Positions 33,434 through 39,168 of a stretch of 64,000 bases of DNA are shown piece by piece (position 1 is the first letter of the stretch; the number at the start of each line of letters is the position of its first letter). This DNA is from Halopiger goleimassiliensis. Its GTDB lineage: Archaea; Halobacteriota; Halobacteria; Halobacteriales; Natrialbaceae. A program made the position numbers and the translations under genes. The stretch spans positions 2,952,339 through 3,016,338 of the forward strand of contig NZ_HG315690.1 in assembly GCF_000455345.1 (NCBI RefSeq), written 5' to 3'. The notes below the pieces were generated by a model. The model was not told the origin of the DNA. It saw only the letters and a list, made by a program, of their open reading frames with translations, and did no database searches.

Positions 33434-33934
33434 TTACTCCGAGCAGCTACACCGAGACTGCGCATCCGCGAACTCGACGACGTACTGATGGACCGCTTCG
33501 GCTAAATCGTGCATTCCGAGCGCGAGATCACGCCCTGGCCGTTCGATGTCGTAATAGATTCGAGCCCGGTGGTCAGTTCGGAAACTATCGATCCGTTCAG
33601 CAACGTTCTCGGTGGAGAATACGCCACGACTCTCGATATCTTCGAATACGGCCCCGTGCTCGTGATAGTCCGACGACTCCGCGGCAGTCATCTCGACCAA
33701 GTAAAACTGGAACGACCGCTCGATCGCGTTGAACGACAGTTCGACGATACTGACGTTATTGTTCGTTCCTCGACGGAGCTGGCGACAGGTACCGAGCATC
33801 GCACACGCTTTTCCCAACTGGATATCGGCGTCCCGTTCCTGCCAGGAGAGGGAGTCCTGAACCGGACCAGTCTCCCCATCCGCTAACAACGACTCGACGT
33901 GATCGACGGCGTCGACGACGGCTTCAAGGTCCAT
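33434..33934 (-). CDS. HEPN-domain protein, toxin-like partner of the second MNT gene
   Basis: 166 aa, starting within the end of the MNT gene by the same 11-nt overlap as the first pair. It aligns by eye with the protein at 8697-9191: DIQLGKACAMLGTCRQL, SFNAIERSFQFYLVEM, MHDLAEAVHQYVVEFA and a Cys-containing end RCSCSE. At the catalytic site it reads HRARIYYDI, again Tyr where HepT has His. The shared replacement argues that it is a stable feature of this lineage and not decay. Confidence 0.7.
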   Translation of the reverse strand: MDLEAVVDAVDHVESLLADGETGPVQDSLSWQERDADIQLGKACAMLGTCRQLRRGTNNNVSIVELSFNAIERSFQFYLVEMTAAESSDYHEHGAVFEDIESRGVFSTENVAERIDSFRTDHRARIYYDIERPGRDLALGMHDLAEAVHQYVVEFADAQSRCSCSE

Positions 33935-34613
33935 TCTCGAACACCGCCGTTTTGACCGCCTCGAGCGCGTCCGTTTCGTGGAGCGTAATCCCTTCGGCCA
34001 AGATCGTAGCGATGCGATCGTGATCCGGTGCAGACGACCTCGTTTCGACGAGGATATGTGATTCGTATCGGTCGCCATCGAATCGCTCCGAGGCGACGTC
34101 CGACTCGATCGTGTGTGCTCGCCGTTGTGCTTCCATCCGACCGTCTTCCACGACGACGAATAGATCGATATCACTCGCACGGTCGGCGTTACCGCGGGCA
34201 ACACTCCCGAACAGGACGATACCCGCATCAGCACTGATTTGGTCCGTGATACGGGAAACGAGTTCCCGGACCGGGGGATGAAACGTCTCCTGTGGAACCG
34301 TCGTGACCGGGTCAGCCGGGTTGTGGAGACGTTTCGAATCGATCCGAACGTCGTTGGCCCGACCGTGACGCCCAACTCGGACGACACCTAACCCTTCCAG
34401 GGCTCGAACGGCCGAATTTACGTTTCCCATTCCCTTCCCGGTTAATCGCTGGAGTTCACGATTACTGAACGATCGCCCCGGATGCTCCGAGAGCAGATGG
34501 AGGATTTCGGCGGTCGCGTCGTTACTGAACGCTTCGGGGTCGCCGACCGGTACGGGCAGACGCACGTATTTCCCCTCAGTACCGTGCTCTGACTGAACTG
34601 CTTCGCTGTTCAT
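33924..34613 (-). CDS. wHTH-MNT nucleotidyltransferase, antitoxin of the second MNT/HEPN pair
   Basis: 229 aa from the ATG at 34613, chosen because an inverted repeat abuts it and the upstream frame is not coding-like. Winged helix at about residues 30-85 (NRELQRLTGKGMGNVNSAVRAL), then the nucleotidyltransferase motif GSVARGNADRASDIDLFVVV with GSx10DxD intact. Same architecture as 8030-8707 but clearly diverged. It lies at the left edge of the accessory region. Confidence 0.82.
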   Translation of the reverse strand: MNSEAVQSEHGTEGKYVRLPVPVGDPEAFSNDATAEILHLLSEHPGRSFSNRELQRLTGKGMGNVNSAVRALEGLGVVRVGRHGRANDVRIDSKRLHNPADPVTTVPQETFHPPVRELVSRITDQISADAGIVLFGSVARGNADRASDIDLFVVVEDGRMEAQRRAHTIESDVASERFDGDRYESHILVETRSSAPDHDRIATILAEGITLHETDALEAVKTAVFENGP

Positions 34614-34630
34614 GAACAGGTATCCTGTTC
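34614..34630 (-). promoter_or_regulatory. Inverted repeat abutting the second MNT start, putative operator
   Basis: GAACAGG and CCTGTTC are perfect 7-bp arms with a TAT spacer, directly next to the start codon (CAT at 34611-34613 on the plus strand). It differs in sequence and symmetry from the direct repeat of the first MNT operon, so the two regulators should not cross-bind. Confidence 0.5.
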
Positions 34631-34838
34631 GTCCTTGCCTAAGCATTACGCATTTACTCATGGCTAAAGCAGCGAAATAATTCGTCGCTTCGGCCTCCGC
34701 GCATAGAACTGGATCGTGGTGTGCCACCGTCCAAACGCCACTGTCTTCGCAGTCACAGACGGAGGCGCTACGGACGGAACCCATTCAAAGGAGGTTCTCC
34801 TCGAGTCCCAGCCAACGTGGGCCGTGACCCGCTACCGA

Positions 34839-35205
34839 TCACGCTCGAGCAACGTCATCTCGAGCGGGTCGAGCGTCGGGGACCGCCACCTCGAGCGGCC
34901 CCGATCCCCTCCTCGGAGCCGCGTCCGCGAAGCGGCCGGTGCCGTCCGGGGTCGACTCGAGCGGCGTCGGCAGCGCGCCGGGATCGACGGCCTCGGACGG
35001 CCCCAGGGCGGTCCGCTCCCGGCCCTCACGGACCGCGATACGATCGAGTGCCGTGACGAGCGCCGGGTGCGTGGTCACCGTCGGGGTGTTCGACGAGCGC
35101 GAGTTCGAAGGCCGTCTCGCAGTCGGGACACCTCGCCGGGTCGGTCGTCGTCGCGATACGGATCGCCGTGCCACAGTCGCAGTGGATGGTGATGCTCGAG
35201 ACCAT
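34839..35205 (-). pseudogene. Small zinc-ribbon gene, apparently frameshifted
   Basis: The frame from the ATG at 35205 reads MVSSITIHCDCGTAIRIATT then CPDCETAFELALVEHPDGD, a compact CxCG/CPDC zinc ribbon, but runs into poor sequence. A second frame, overlapping near 35080-35090 and ending at 34839, reads HPALVTALDRIAVREGRER and on to a haloarchaea-like acidic/Pro tail. Skipping one C would join them as one protein of about 120 aa. If the frames are separate, the first is a 59-aa protein. Identity is unknown. Confidence 0.35.
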
Positions 35206-35298
35206 GTCTGGTGTCGTCTCGTGGCCCCGGCGTCGCAGGAACACTCCCTCGAGCGACTCAGCGGCAGCCTCGACTGGATCGGCGGGACGTCGGCAGGT

Positions 35299-35306
35299 CT
35301 TTATTT
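35299..35306 (+). promoter_or_regulatory. TATA-like box before the structured region
   Basis: CTTTATTT lies about 25 nt before the first hairpin of the candidate RNA at 35324 and does not precede any plausible start codon at leaderless distance. Confidence 0.3.
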
Positions 35307-35323
35307 CGCCAACGTCAATGGTG

Positions 35324-35434
35324 GATTGCTCCCGCTACGCGGGGGCGAATCGTTGAGCCGGAGCGCGTGGTTGGCGCCTTGGGCTCCGGCTCAGCGCACT
35401 TTCGTGCGCGTCTGCACGGTACGCAATCTACCGT
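35324..35434 (+). ncRNA. Candidate structured RNA with four consecutive hairpins
   Basis: Four stems follow each other with almost no linker. Hairpin 1: GCTCCCGC/GCGGGGGC with loop TAC (35328-35346, one G-U). Hairpin 2: GAGCCGGAGC/GCTCCGGCTC, 10 perfect pairs (35355-35392). Hairpin 3: GCGCAC/GTGCGC with a TTTC loop (35394-35409). Hairpin 4: ACGGTA/TACCGT (35416-35434). No reading frame across it looks real. The strand is inferred from the TATA-like box at 35299. It could also be an element end or a regulatory leader. Confidence 0.4.
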
Positions 35435-35684
35435 AAAGAACGTTAGGATGCTGACTGGTTAGTACCGTGTCCCGCTCTGGGAAAGAGGAAACAAGGTCTA
35501 AATCAACCGCTCCGATTCCGCAGTGTCCCCAAGGGGACAAAAGCGAAAAAATACAGCACCCGCCCCTCCTTCTGCGGGGTTCCACTCGAACCTCCTGTTC
35601 CACGAGAAACAGTCGAAACGGTGGTCCAATAGGATTCCATTTCAGGGGAAATCGGTATAGAGTAGCTGTGCCATCATTTCACAT
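35435..35684. other. Intergenic stretch with one short hairpin
   Basis: No convincing gene. A 73-codon open frame (35467-35688) exists but has no recognisable composition or start signal. TGTCCCC/GGGGACA at 35524-35539 is a 7-bp hairpin with a 2-nt spacer. From about 35600 the base composition becomes AT-rich, marking the entry into the island. Confidence 0.4.
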
Positions 35685-35987
35685 ATGAGGGGCTGCTATT
35701 TCTGCGGAAATAGGTTTAAGCCTAGTACTGGAAATAAACCACAGTATAGAGTCGAAGAAATGGAGTCGACCAAAGAGATGGGTCGCGCTTGCCCATCTTG
35801 TGGACCTCGTCTTTTTCAGAAAGGTCTTTCTGGCCCTGGATGTATAGAACCAGGCTGTAATTCTTCAGAAGATATTAAAATTACCGAATATAAACCGGAA
35901 AAGAACCTCAGTGGAGAAATAACATGGAGAGCCGGAAAATGGTCTCCAATCTATTGTCAGAACCACGCTCCGTCCGCAAGCCCCTAG
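35685..35987 (+). CDS. Small Cys-rich, probably zinc-binding protein
   Basis: 100 aa. The cysteines come in metal-site pairs: Cys4/Cys7 (CYFC), Cys36/Cys39 (CPSC), Cys53/Cys58 (CIEPGC) and Cys91 with His94 (YCQNH), enough for two zinc sites. Codon use (ATA, AGA, TTT) is unlike the chromosomal genes, so it seems imported together with the following operon. The frame ends at a TAG at 35985. No known family is recognised; a nucleic-acid or protein-binding ribbon is plausible. Confidence 0.5.
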   Translation: MRGCYFCGNRFKPSTGNKPQYRVEEMESTKEMGRACPSCGPRLFQKGLSGPGCIEPGCNSSEDIKITEYKPEKNLSGEITWRAGKWSPIYCQNHAPSASP

Positions 35988-36189
35988 GGAACAGGGCAAT
36001 TGCGCTGCGCGTAGAGTACGCGCCGCGCTCGAGTTGGCAGACGAGATAGCCGAACAACACGTATTGACGGCAGCTAAAGCAATTCGACAATGCAACAGTC
36101 GAACTCCAAATAAAGAACTTGAAACAGGGGTTATAGCGGAAATATCGGATTATCCGTTCCAGGGGAAGGTTCAAATAGATCCCAAATAA
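35923..36189 (+). pseudogene. Coding-like remnant without a start codon
   Basis: A frame with no ATG or GTG runs from just after a TAA at 35920 to a TAA at 36187-36189. Its second half reads like helical protein: ARRVRAALELADEIAEQHVL, then TAAKAIRQCNSRTPNKELE. A TTG at 36034 would give only 52 aa. It overlaps the end of the Cys-rich gene in another frame. It may be the tail of a gene truncated when the island formed. The origin is not recognised; a AAA+/Orc1-type C-terminal helix was considered but not supported. Confidence 0.25.
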
Positions 36190-36200
36190 TAGATGCATCC

Positions 36201-37223
36201 ATGTCAGTTGATAAGGACAAGATCAGGAACATTTTGGAAAGCGATTCTATCAAAGCTTCTCATCTAAAAGAGTTAGTTGATAAAAGAGGGTTGGATGTTC
36301 ACCCGCGAACGATTGATAATATGATCACTGCTCTTCTTTCAGAAAAATGGACTGAGGATGAATTTGACGAGTTGAAGAAAATGCTCGTCATGATCCAGAA
36401 GGAGTCATCTCCACATGGATACTATGTCGGAACGATTGAAGGTTTACCCGACGCTACTCCTCAGGAGGATCACGAAGAACTCCAAGAAGCCCTCCGGATT
36501 AATGAGGCTAGTTTTGATGGAGATGAATTAATTGAGCCTGGTTTTAAAGTGAATAAATCATCGCCGAAACTGGTCACTGGTATCTATTGGACTCAGACCA
36601 CTACCTATGAATCAGACCCATTCGATAATTTAAGAACAAGAACTAAATTATATGACTTTGGATTCGAATTCCATCTTGATGAGGGCATTGTGCACATAAT
36701 CGGCGACAATTTTGGGAAATTAGGAGAAGTGATGTCGGCACTTGAAGAAGTTGGTGTCGATATCGAGGGTGTAGGCCATGACGGCGTTCATCCAGACGAT
36801 GCAAAAACATATGTGAAAGGATTCATAGATGATCTATCATCTGGGTTAGCAGATAAGCGCGCTCAGCAAAGCCTTACGAACTACGGTTCAGGAAGTCATA
36901 ATCCTCTAATTAGCGTCCATACCGTACATATTCGTCTATCTGGTGGCGCTCTTCAAAAAGCAGATCTTGAAGGAAACCAGGATATCTTCGATAATGACAC
37001 AGTGAAGACTCTAACAGAAGATAAGAATGGGAAAATTGCTCAAATGAAGGGTGATCTCATCTATAAAGACACAAACTTCGGATTTAATATCGGATATAAT
37101 GAAAGGCTCGGCAGGATTAGGATTAAAAAGAAAACGGGAAAGGATGGTGACGTGGATATTGTTGAGGAAGCTTTTGAATTCGTGTATTCTTATTACAAAG
37201 AGTATTATATTGATAAGCTATAA
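36201..37223 (+). CDS. Unrecognised soluble protein, first gene of AT-rich operon
   Basis: 340 aa, with AT-rich codon use sharply unlike its surroundings (22 G+C in the 60-base line at 36241). No signal peptide or membrane segment. The N-terminal 70 residues are helical and HTH-like (IRNILESDSIKASHLKELVD). A middle domain (about 110-235) contains VTGIYWTQTTTYESDPFDNL and the alpha/beta segment IVHIIGDNFGKLGEVMSALE. A C-terminal domain (about 240-340) has VHTVHIRLSGGALQK, FGFNIGYNERLGRIRIKKK and an aromatic end. No catalytic motif is seen. Its stop overlaps the next start (TAATG). Confidence 0.75.
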   Translation: MSVDKDKIRNILESDSIKASHLKELVDKRGLDVHPRTIDNMITALLSEKWTEDEFDELKKMLVMIQKESSPHGYYVGTIEGLPDATPQEDHEELQEALRINEASFDGDELIEPGFKVNKSSPKLVTGIYWTQTTTYESDPFDNLRTRTKLYDFGFEFHLDEGIVHIIGDNFGKLGEVMSALEEVGVDIEGVGHDGVHPDDAKTYVKGFIDDLSSGLADKRAQQSLTNYGSGSHNPLISVHTVHIRLSGGALQKADLEGNQDIFDNDTVKTLTEDKNGKIAQMKGDLIYKDTNFGFNIGYNERLGRIRIKKKTGKDGDVDIVEEAFEFVYSYYKEYYIDKL

Positions 37224-37975
37224 TGGGGAGAAAGTTCCAATTTGAGGTCCAATATACCCTTTCGCTTATTGTTGGTGTTTTGGGGTTAATCGGAACAGAG
37301 ACCCTTAACGGCTATATCCGCTTAGAAGTAGGATTAGCGTTCTTGGTTATTGGCGGAGTTCATTTAATTCTTTTATCTATTGTATATAGTTTTGAGAAAA
37401 CTGTGTCTATACCAATACCCTTGGTTGTTAGAATAGAGGAAATTAGTGTGTGGACATTGCGATTAGCAACACTATTCTTCGTGTACTTGCTATCTCATGG
37501 CTTGAGTAAGAGTCTCTTACCTACTGTAGATCCTGAAACAAACCGAGGTCTTATTGTGTTTGGGTTACCACTTCTACCTGTTGTGATCATCGTGATGGTG
37601 TACATCCTCAGCATCTTACCTTTCAAGAGATTTTCTGATGATGTCTCCATCACGATCGTTCCAGATGGTCTTACGATATTCGAGAATTACGAGGAAGGAA
37701 GACCAGGGCATATCGAAGTAGTAAATGATAGTGAACGGGCTCACGAGTTTGAAATAGTCATTGACCTTCCAGAGAATGTATATGCCCGCTACAAAGGAGA
37801 GGAATATGCTGACGAGATTATAGAGACTCTTTCATTTTCAGGAAAAGGTCTCCAAACTATGGATCTACAATTTCGTCATGACTCTTCAACACAAAAAATG
37901 GCGTTGACCAAAGTGCAGGTCGACTATAAGGAGTCCACCAGAGAGATCGAATGGGAAACTCTGTTAGCGCTTTGA
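37223..37975 (+). CDS. Four-helix membrane protein with C-terminal beta domain, second gene of AT-rich operon
   Basis: 250 aa, starting on the last base of the upstream stop (TAATG), so the two are translationally coupled. Four hydrophobic helices lie at about residues 9-27, 32-55, 73-96 and 108-132, followed by a soluble domain of about 110 residues rich in beta strands (VSITIVPDGLTIFE, GHIEVVNDSERAHEFEIVID). The topology resembles membrane effectors or anchors paired with cytoplasmic sensors, but no known family is recognised. Codon use matches its partner and not the chromosome. Confidence 0.75.
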   Translation: MGRKFQFEVQYTLSLIVGVLGLIGTETLNGYIRLEVGLAFLVIGGVHLILLSIVYSFEKTVSIPIPLVVRIEEISVWTLRLATLFFVYLLSHGLSKSLLPTVDPETNRGLIVFGLPLLPVVIIVMVYILSILPFKRFSDDVSITIVPDGLTIFENYEEGRPGHIEVVNDSERAHEFEIVIDLPENVYARYKGEEYADEIIETLSFSGKGLQTMDLQFRHDSSTQKMALTKVQVDYKESTREIEWETLLAL

Positions 37976-38034
37976 GGGACGCTATTGATCTGCTCCCCAG
38001 GGGTTGCACATCTCGAATACTAATTTCCCGAATA

Positions 38035-38063
38035 TGAACACGAAGGCGCTTTAGCCGTGTTCA
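38035..38063. repeat. Short inverted repeat TGAACACG/CGTGTTCA
   Basis: 8-bp perfect arms (38035-38042 and 38056-38063) around a 13-nt loop. It may be a terminator-like hairpin for the AT-rich operon or the left subterminal hairpin of a decayed element whose other end is at 38373-38456. Confidence 0.4.
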
Positions 38064-38372
38064 CCTCCGCGGAATCGACATCGAATTGCATCAACCCGGC
38101 GTGTATTCCCTCCCTGAACCCACGATCCAGGAGCCAGTACTGACCAGTGGGTGAACGGAAGACAGCGAAAATAACGGCTCGTGTTCACAACAGTCGGGTG
38201 GAGATCTCGAGTTCACCCTCGTCGTTCCGGAACCAGATAGCAAGCCTTCGGCTCGCTCAACGATCCGCAATCCACTGGCGTGCCACGGCCGGGAGATCGA
38301 GGCCGCGGACCACGCGCGGCCTCGAGCGACCCGGGGAAGGGCAGGCCCCTCCCTGGTGGACTGAAAGGGCGA

Positions 38373-38456
38373 GCCGCTGTCGCGTTTACTGTAGTCGTCT
38401 CAGCGACCCCTATCCGCGCTTGCGCGGATATGTCGCTGAGCGACCGCGACAGCGGC
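38373..38456. repeat. Large nested palindrome
   Basis: Three nested pairs of perfect arms share one axis: GCCGCTGTCGCG/CGCGACAGCGGC (38373-38384 and 38445-38456), CTCAGCGAC/GTCGCTGAG (38399-38407 and 38432-38440) and TATCCGCGC/GCGCGGATA (38411-38419 and 38422-38430, loop TT). Thirty paired bases per strand is far beyond chance. It could be an element end, a strong hairpin RNA or a protein-binding site. Confidence 0.55.
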
Positions 38457-38604
38457 GAGGGCTTTCGAGGTGTTCGCGGTCACGTACACCCACGACTGAA
38501 TATCCGCAGAATCTCCCCTCGAGCAGAAAACACCCACTCGAACGTAAAAGGACCGTGGCAGTGCCAGGTGTGTACTCACCAGTGGTCGGTGACTCCTACC
38601 GGAT

Positions 38605-39168
38605 ATGCGAGTCTCGATCCCCGCGCTGCCGGGCGTCTACTACGATACCGACACCGGATCGACGGCTATCGGCGTCGCCGCGACGGCCATCGGCCGCAAG
38701 GCACCGAAACCGAAGGGGTACGCCATCCAGCTACTCCCCTATCTCTGGTCGTTCGAGGTCGACCTCCGCGAGGTGCCGACCGATCACCCGATCCAGTACC
38801 TCCACCCCGAGGGGGCACAGAGCATCGGCGAACTCGCGACCCAGCGACCCCTCCGCGAGGCCGGCACCGAACTCGAGTCGGTCCTCCGGTTCGTCCTCTC
38901 GGTCAACCAGACCGTCGAGTCGACGGCCAACCGCGCGCTCGGCCGGTCGCCGGACGCCGAGGGCGTCACCATCGAGATCCAGGACGGCGCGATCAGCGTC
39001 GACGGCGAGGACCTCGCGACCGACGAGTTCGACCTCGAGTCGGGCGCTGACCCGGGGATCGACCGGGATTCAGATCCGCTCGAGGACGACGATTTCGGCG
39101 GGGCCGACCGCGACTCGGAGACGTTCGGGGACAACCGCGACGGAATCGACGGCGACGACGAGTCCTGA
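38605..39168 (+). CDS. Conserved haloarchaeal hypothetical protein
   Basis: 187 aa with ordinary GC-rich codons. The N-terminal 70 residues look folded (SIPALPGVYYDTDTGSTAIG, YLWSFEVDLREVPTDHP), a helix follows (LREAGTELESVLRFVLSVNQ) and the last 55 residues are acidic and disordered. No signal peptide. It faces hisG tail to tail. No function can be assigned. Confidence 0.65.
   Translation: MRVSIPALPGVYYDTDTGSTAIGVAATAIGRKAPKPKGYAIQLLPYLWSFEVDLREVPTDHPIQYLHPEGAQSIGELATQRPLREAGTELESVLRFVLSVNQTVESTANRALGRSPDAEGVTIEIQDGAISVDGEDLATDEFDLESGADPGIDRDSDPLEDDDFGGADRDSETFGDNRDGIDGDDES

Follow-up and report, generated by a model that had tools for sequence, protein, structure and literature searches.

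A conserved three-hairpin RNA of haloarchaea encoded back to back with zinc-ribbon and HalOD1 genes

Introduction

Several small RNAs (sRNAs) are encoded divergently from a regulator, as in the pairs SgrR-SgrS, GcvA-GcvB, and OxyR-OxyS. Here we describe a putative RNA gene of Halopiger goleimassiliensis that resembles these pairs in its divergent position next to a small regulatory operon and in having a conserved promoter box between the two. It differs from them in that a 59-aa zinc ribbon and a HalOD1 protein take the place of a bacterial transcription factor of those families, and in that the module is multi-copy and haloarchaeal.

HalOD1 (PF18545) is a signal transduction domain reported in over 2,000 proteins, and a single genome can have as many as 49 stand-alone copies (Galperin 2018, PMC5847659). 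In Haloferax volcanii, the HalOD1 protein DdfA is required for disks to form (PMC10869688). The second protein of the module is of the same kind as these stand-alone proteins, for which the accessible parts of both papers mention no RNA partner (PMC5847659, PMC10869688); unlike the HalOD1 of the module, most HalOD1 genes that we tested lack the RNA. The zinc finger micro-proteins of H. volcanii are likewise single-domain zinc proteins under 70 aa, (PMC6562870), and the zinc ribbon described here differs from them in falling short of all Pfam and NCBIfam cut-offs and in being tied to an RNA gene.

Results

Hairpins and fold of the window copy

The window is the whole stretch of DNA that was analyzed, 64,000 nucleotides in length. 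A preliminary description made from its sequence had pointed to four successive stems in a gene-free stretch behind a TATA-like box. The features of this copy are as follows.

34839-35078, minus strand: decayed remnant of a HalOD1 (PF18545) gene, whose start overlaps the end of the zinc-ribbon gene
35026-35205, minus strand: zinc-ribbon gene, 59 aa, CxC...CPxC, divergent from the RNA
35288-35306, plus strand: promoter motif CGTCGGCAGGTCTTTATTT, a TATA-like box (35300-35306) plus an upstream box
35328-35460, plus strand: putative small RNA, ~133 nt, its start placed by TATA spacing and its end by the conservation edge
35328-35346, plus strand: hairpin H1, 8 bp, GCUCCCGC-UAC-GCGGGGGC
35355-35392, plus strand: hairpin H2, outer stem of 11 bp (GAGCCGGAG/CUCCGGCUC), internal loop, and variable apical loop
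35394-35409, plus strand: hairpin H3, 6 bp, GCGCAC-UUUC-GUGCGC
35416-35434, plus strand: fourth stem of the preliminary description, 6 bp, which folds in the window copy and is unconserved
35439-35460, plus strand: 3' tail AACGTTAGGATGCTGACTGGTT, sequence-conserved and partly recognizable in distant members

All four stems are present between 35324 and 35434, the second having an outer stem of 11 bp where 10 pairs had been claimed. The box TTTATTT (35300-35306) is centered 25 nt upstream of the first stem, as described, and no credible plus-strand gene overlaps the hairpins. The segment has a minimum free energy of -64.7 kcal/mol (z = -5.16), and none of 200 dinucleotide shuffles (mean -46.4, S.D. 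3.55) was as stable. For the putative transcript (35328-35460), the fold z score is -4.58. ARAGORN found no tRNA or tmRNA gene in the whole window, and Rfam 15 gave no match at the gathering threshold in the window and none at 35200-35560 even with E values up to 5. We also considered a closed four-way junction, in which GGTGGATTGC (35320-35329) could pair with GCAATCTACC. This model was rejected, as its pairs are often broken in relatives and GGTGGATTGC lies mostly upstream of the start proposed below.

Copies, unit, and host range

The RNA forms the last part of a sharp-edged repeated unit of ~650 bp (about 34800-35460), whose ends are placed approximately, short of base resolution. The genome of the window (G000) holds three copies, the other two being 89% and 87% identical to the window copy across ~175-180 nt. 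A DNA search across the family gave matches in 30 of 125 genomes, from which we assembled a comparison set of 77 distinct copies (later finds, e.g. L156 and L157, are outside this set). Seventeen of the 30 genomes are multi-copy, with up to seven copies per genome within the 77; these numbers per genome are lower bounds, since no more than 6 candidates were scored in each genome. Two or three units stand ~1.5-6 kb apart in the same genome in L037 (at 2601, 8291, and 9778), L045 (3001 and 5091), and L072 (1050 and 3001).

Flanking sequence sorts the copies into 29 classes by single linkage, some of which are possibly merged or split. At the window locus, genomes G079 and G083 likewise carry the unit between an SDR gene and the gene that corresponds to the one at 38605. 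The same two genes occur without the unit ~64 nt apart in L264 (G058) and ~90 nt apart in L268 (G085).

Exact pattern matches, in 40 stretches, have named hosts that include Natrinema, Natrialba, Natrarchaeobius, Halopiger, and Halobiforma. Within the order Halobacteriales, covariance model R1 matched 26 of 293 genomes, including four from other families, and model R2 matched 38 of 392, including nine from other families. Diverged members were found in three further families. The R2 match in G185 is weak (1.2e-5), and the weakest one, in G229 (8.7e-4), apparently lies within coding sequence and was treated as false. A draw from across the phylum gave matches in 7 of 246 genomes, all within the same order. 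The RNA pattern had no match in IMG/VR, nor did blastn find one among 72,556 plasmid and 50,697 phage records.

Conservation of the RNA structure

Across the 77 copies, all pairs of H1 are kept in 71, the first nine pairs of H2 in 74, and all pairs of H3 in 75; the fourth stem keeps all six pairs in 2, with 59.9% of its cells paired. The seven pairs of an alternative stem in the tail (ATCCTAA/TTAGGAT) are complete in 23 of 77 copies. The 77-copy alignment has 94.3% of cells paired and double changes at 7 pairs. In a set of 18 sequences that includes five diverged members, aligned by fitting to the model, double changes occur at 11 pairs (28 cells), H1 among the stems concerned, and covariation reaches 0.231 compared with 0.132 in shuffled alignments, and slid controls do not exceed 0.064; none of 500 shuffles scored as high. 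An unfitted MAFFT alignment analyzed with RNAalifold again yielded these three hairpins, and 10 of the 22 pairs show double changes. The GAGCCGGAG arm of H2 is swapped for GAGAGGGAG in distant members, with the 3' arm changed to match. At the paired sites of H1-H3, the 77 copies contain 119 G-T cells versus 11 A-C cells, indicating an RNA read from the plus strand and not a DNA hairpin or an RNA of the opposite strand.

These data show a conserved RNA structure, H1-H3, on the plus strand. The preliminary proposal of a candidate new structured RNA is supported for stems 1-3, with their compensatory and G-U changes, and is not supported for the fourth hairpin, complete in only two copies. Stem conservation in homologous sequences, whose absence was one half of the refutation test set by the same description, was found for stems 1-3 in the 77 close copies and in five distant ones. 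The copy number, the diverged relatives, and the divergent zinc-ribbon/HalOD1 genes go beyond that description.

Downstream of the hairpins, mean column identity is 0.92 across most of the 3' tail versus 0.75 in the preceding linker. The apical loop of H2 is of TTGG type in 58 copies, of CCAA type in 13, of both in 2, and of neither in 4. Once inverted, 12 of the 13 CCAA-type loops fit the TTGG set better, which suggests that the palindromic center flips. In all 17 multi-copy genomes, the loop differs among all copies of the same genome. It may act as a specificity element; the linker beside it is even more variable, which would point to relaxed constraint instead.

Promoter and putative transcript ends

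The TATA-like box is centered 25 nt before H1 in 75 of 77 copies and 24 nt before it in one, the last copy having no exact TTTAT. In diverged members a related motif, CGTCGNCACANCTWWA, is found at a similar position, displaced by one to three bases in a few cases; one of these members (L227) shows no clear promoter motif. The spacing between TATA box and transcription start is characteristic in archaea. The conserved spacing, together with this usual distance, makes the H1 base (near 35328) the probable 5' end. Similarity among copies falls sharply just past 35460, and we place the 3' end there because conservation stops. Judged from sequence, a small RNA of ~133 nt would thus be transcribed from its own promoter.

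Zinc-ribbon and HalOD1 partner genes

The zinc-ribbon gene is read from the opposite strand, and its start is ~95 bp away from the TATA box. In the window it is intact, with dN/dS of about 0.2 against the two other copies of its genome; the median over pairs of 57 copies is 0.50. The protein scores under every Pfam and NCBIfam cut-off, and its structure model is weak (pLDDT 70). The HalOD1 gene of the window has its conserved core replaced and no Pfam match, and aligns to intact homologues at 6.6e-15. Its decay implies that HalOD1 is not required in cis at every copy. In the same genome, HalOD1 is recognized above its cut-off (26.3 bits) in copies L177 (59.6 bits) and L179 (50.6 bits). A consensus sequence of the gene product matches Pfam HalOD1 at 1.2e-15 and NCBIfam DdfA at 1.5e-15, the latter under its cut-off. 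Median dN/dS for 31 HalOD1 genes is 0.44. The HalOD1 model (mean pLDDT 82) has two helices and three strands, and a fold search of the PDB gave nothing significant (best Foldseek E 0.5); a comparison with the WWE region of ZAP (best VIA Z 3.9) was set aside, and no inference was drawn.

The RNA is nearly always linked to these genes. Clean upstream sequence of 450 nt or more is available for 65 of the 77 copies (in the other 12 it is short or contains N), and among these 65 copies 62 have the zinc ribbon, 58 have HalOD1, 56 have both, and one has neither. Among 12 diverged candidates, seven have the zinc ribbon, three have HalOD1, and three (L152, L226, and L228, the last a false match) have no recognized partner; near-duplicates (L151/L222 and L154/L224/L225) make the independent cases fewer than 12. 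In L223 both partners are present and overlap as in the window. Conserved linkage to a small protein operon, as looked for in a divergent regulator/sRNA pair, is therefore seen in 64 of 65 clean copies and in 9 of 12 diverged candidates.

The reverse does not hold. The window's genome has 26 HalOD1 matches, and strong RNA matches lie at only 2 of 25 such loci (L177 and L179) and at none of 29 HalOD1 loci of other genomes. These counts rule out an RNA beside every HalOD1 gene and indicate that most HalOD1 proteins work without it. Nor is the zinc ribbon always accompanied by the RNA gene: a clear R2 match was found at 10 of 30 zinc-ribbon loci searched, and relatives without the RNA include L240, L243, L244, and L250.

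Surroundings of the window copy

On the far side of the partner genes, a minus-strand gene (33924-34784) combines a MarR-like helix-turn-helix with a nucleotidyltransferase (Pfam NTP_transf_2, 7.6e-11; PADLOC PDC-M05A, 3e-15). It is adjoined by an open reading frame that we named HEPN-like by eye and that has no family match (region 33434-34784); L033/L141 has a comparable pair downstream of its RNA copy. Beyond the RNA, an AT-rich island (35470-38000) falls to a G+C content of about 0.37-0.48. Its open reading frames of 340 and 250 aa match nothing in Pfam or PADLOC, and the longer one reaches NCBIfam GapS4b at only 0.0034. A G+C-rich stretch of 50 bp (35980-36029) recurs in L005, L021, and L024, ~236-292 nt past model position 1 in these copies and 690-739 nt past it in the window. 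Finally, segments of 37997-38475 are 69-89% identical to the region downstream of L005, a copy in the same genome, so the flanks of these two copies are partly duplicated.

Discussion

Our preferred interpretation, which we consider reasonably probable, is that the locus encodes a small RNA that acts in trans and either works with its zinc-ribbon/HalOD1 neighbor or is under the control of that neighbor, the three genes forming a haloarchaeal module. An RNA of ~133 nt would be transcribed from its own conserved promoter, starting at about 35328, and would fold into the three hairpins followed by the sequence-conserved 3' tail. The divergent operon would make the zinc-ribbon micro-protein and the HalOD1 signaling protein, one or both of which may act by binding the RNA or by switching the promoter of the RNA through the CGTCGGCA box that directly precedes the TATA element, as in divergent regulator/sRNA pairs such as SgrR-SgrS. 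Promoter control or RNA binding is suggested by the constancy of the partner and by the presence of a conserved box in the region that separates the divergent genes. The zinc ribbon would make the contact with RNA or promoter, and HalOD1 would serve as signal input or output.

Action in trans is proposed because the nearest downstream gene mostly lies on the other strand. A cis-acting 5' leader or riboswitch would likewise have a promoter upstream of a structured segment, and in the window the next open reading frame (35685-35987) lies on the same strand. Across the 26 flank classes with a heuristic gene call, however, the nearest downstream gene shares the strand of the RNA in 5 and runs against it in 21, and conservation ends abruptly near 35460; we therefore regard a leader as very improbable. 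The discreteness of the unit raises a different explanation, namely that it is a small mobile or recombination element, non-autonomous, with hairpins that function as DNA. Its dispersed copies with sharp edges, the orthologous site without it in L264 and the short intergenic gap in L268, and the occurrence of the H2 loop in both orientations would all fit such an element. The excess of G-T over A-C cells, however, fits RNA and not DNA hairpins, promoter spacing is fixed, and the unit has no transposase-like gene. Flanks common to several genera imply stable inheritance, and the plasmid and phage records gave no match. On balance, we think a DNA element unlikely.

Equally unlikely, in our estimate, is a toxin-antitoxin or defense module in which the RNA neutralizes, or is guarded by, small proteins. 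Multiple copies, a patchy distribution, and two tiny genes beside an RNA are in line with it, as is the HEPN/MNT-like pair adjoining the window copy and L033. That pair was seen in two loci only, however, and neither protein matches any toxin family. PADLOC returned nothing for the zinc ribbon and, for HalOD1, a match at only E 0.062.

A more specific form of the trans-acting small RNA reading is a dedicated ribonucleoprotein signaling module, in which the zinc ribbon would sit on the H1-H3 scaffold, HalOD1 would relay a signal, and paralogue-specific H2 loops would pick the targets. We offer it tentatively, as rather doubtful in its full form. If true, several copies of such a module would run in parallel in one genome, and the RNA would be the first RNA partner for any HalOD1 protein.

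With no match in Rfam and no description found in the literature, within which subscription papers were partly covered, we judge this to be an undescribed RNA family of haloarchaea with an unusual protein partnership. It adds a structured RNA family to the archaea, with covariance models R1 and R2 ready for curation, and the several RNA paralogues per genome make their comparison possible. HalOD1 is among the commonest haloarchaeal signaling domains, and a linked RNA gene provides a concrete, testable handle on one HalOD1 subfamily.
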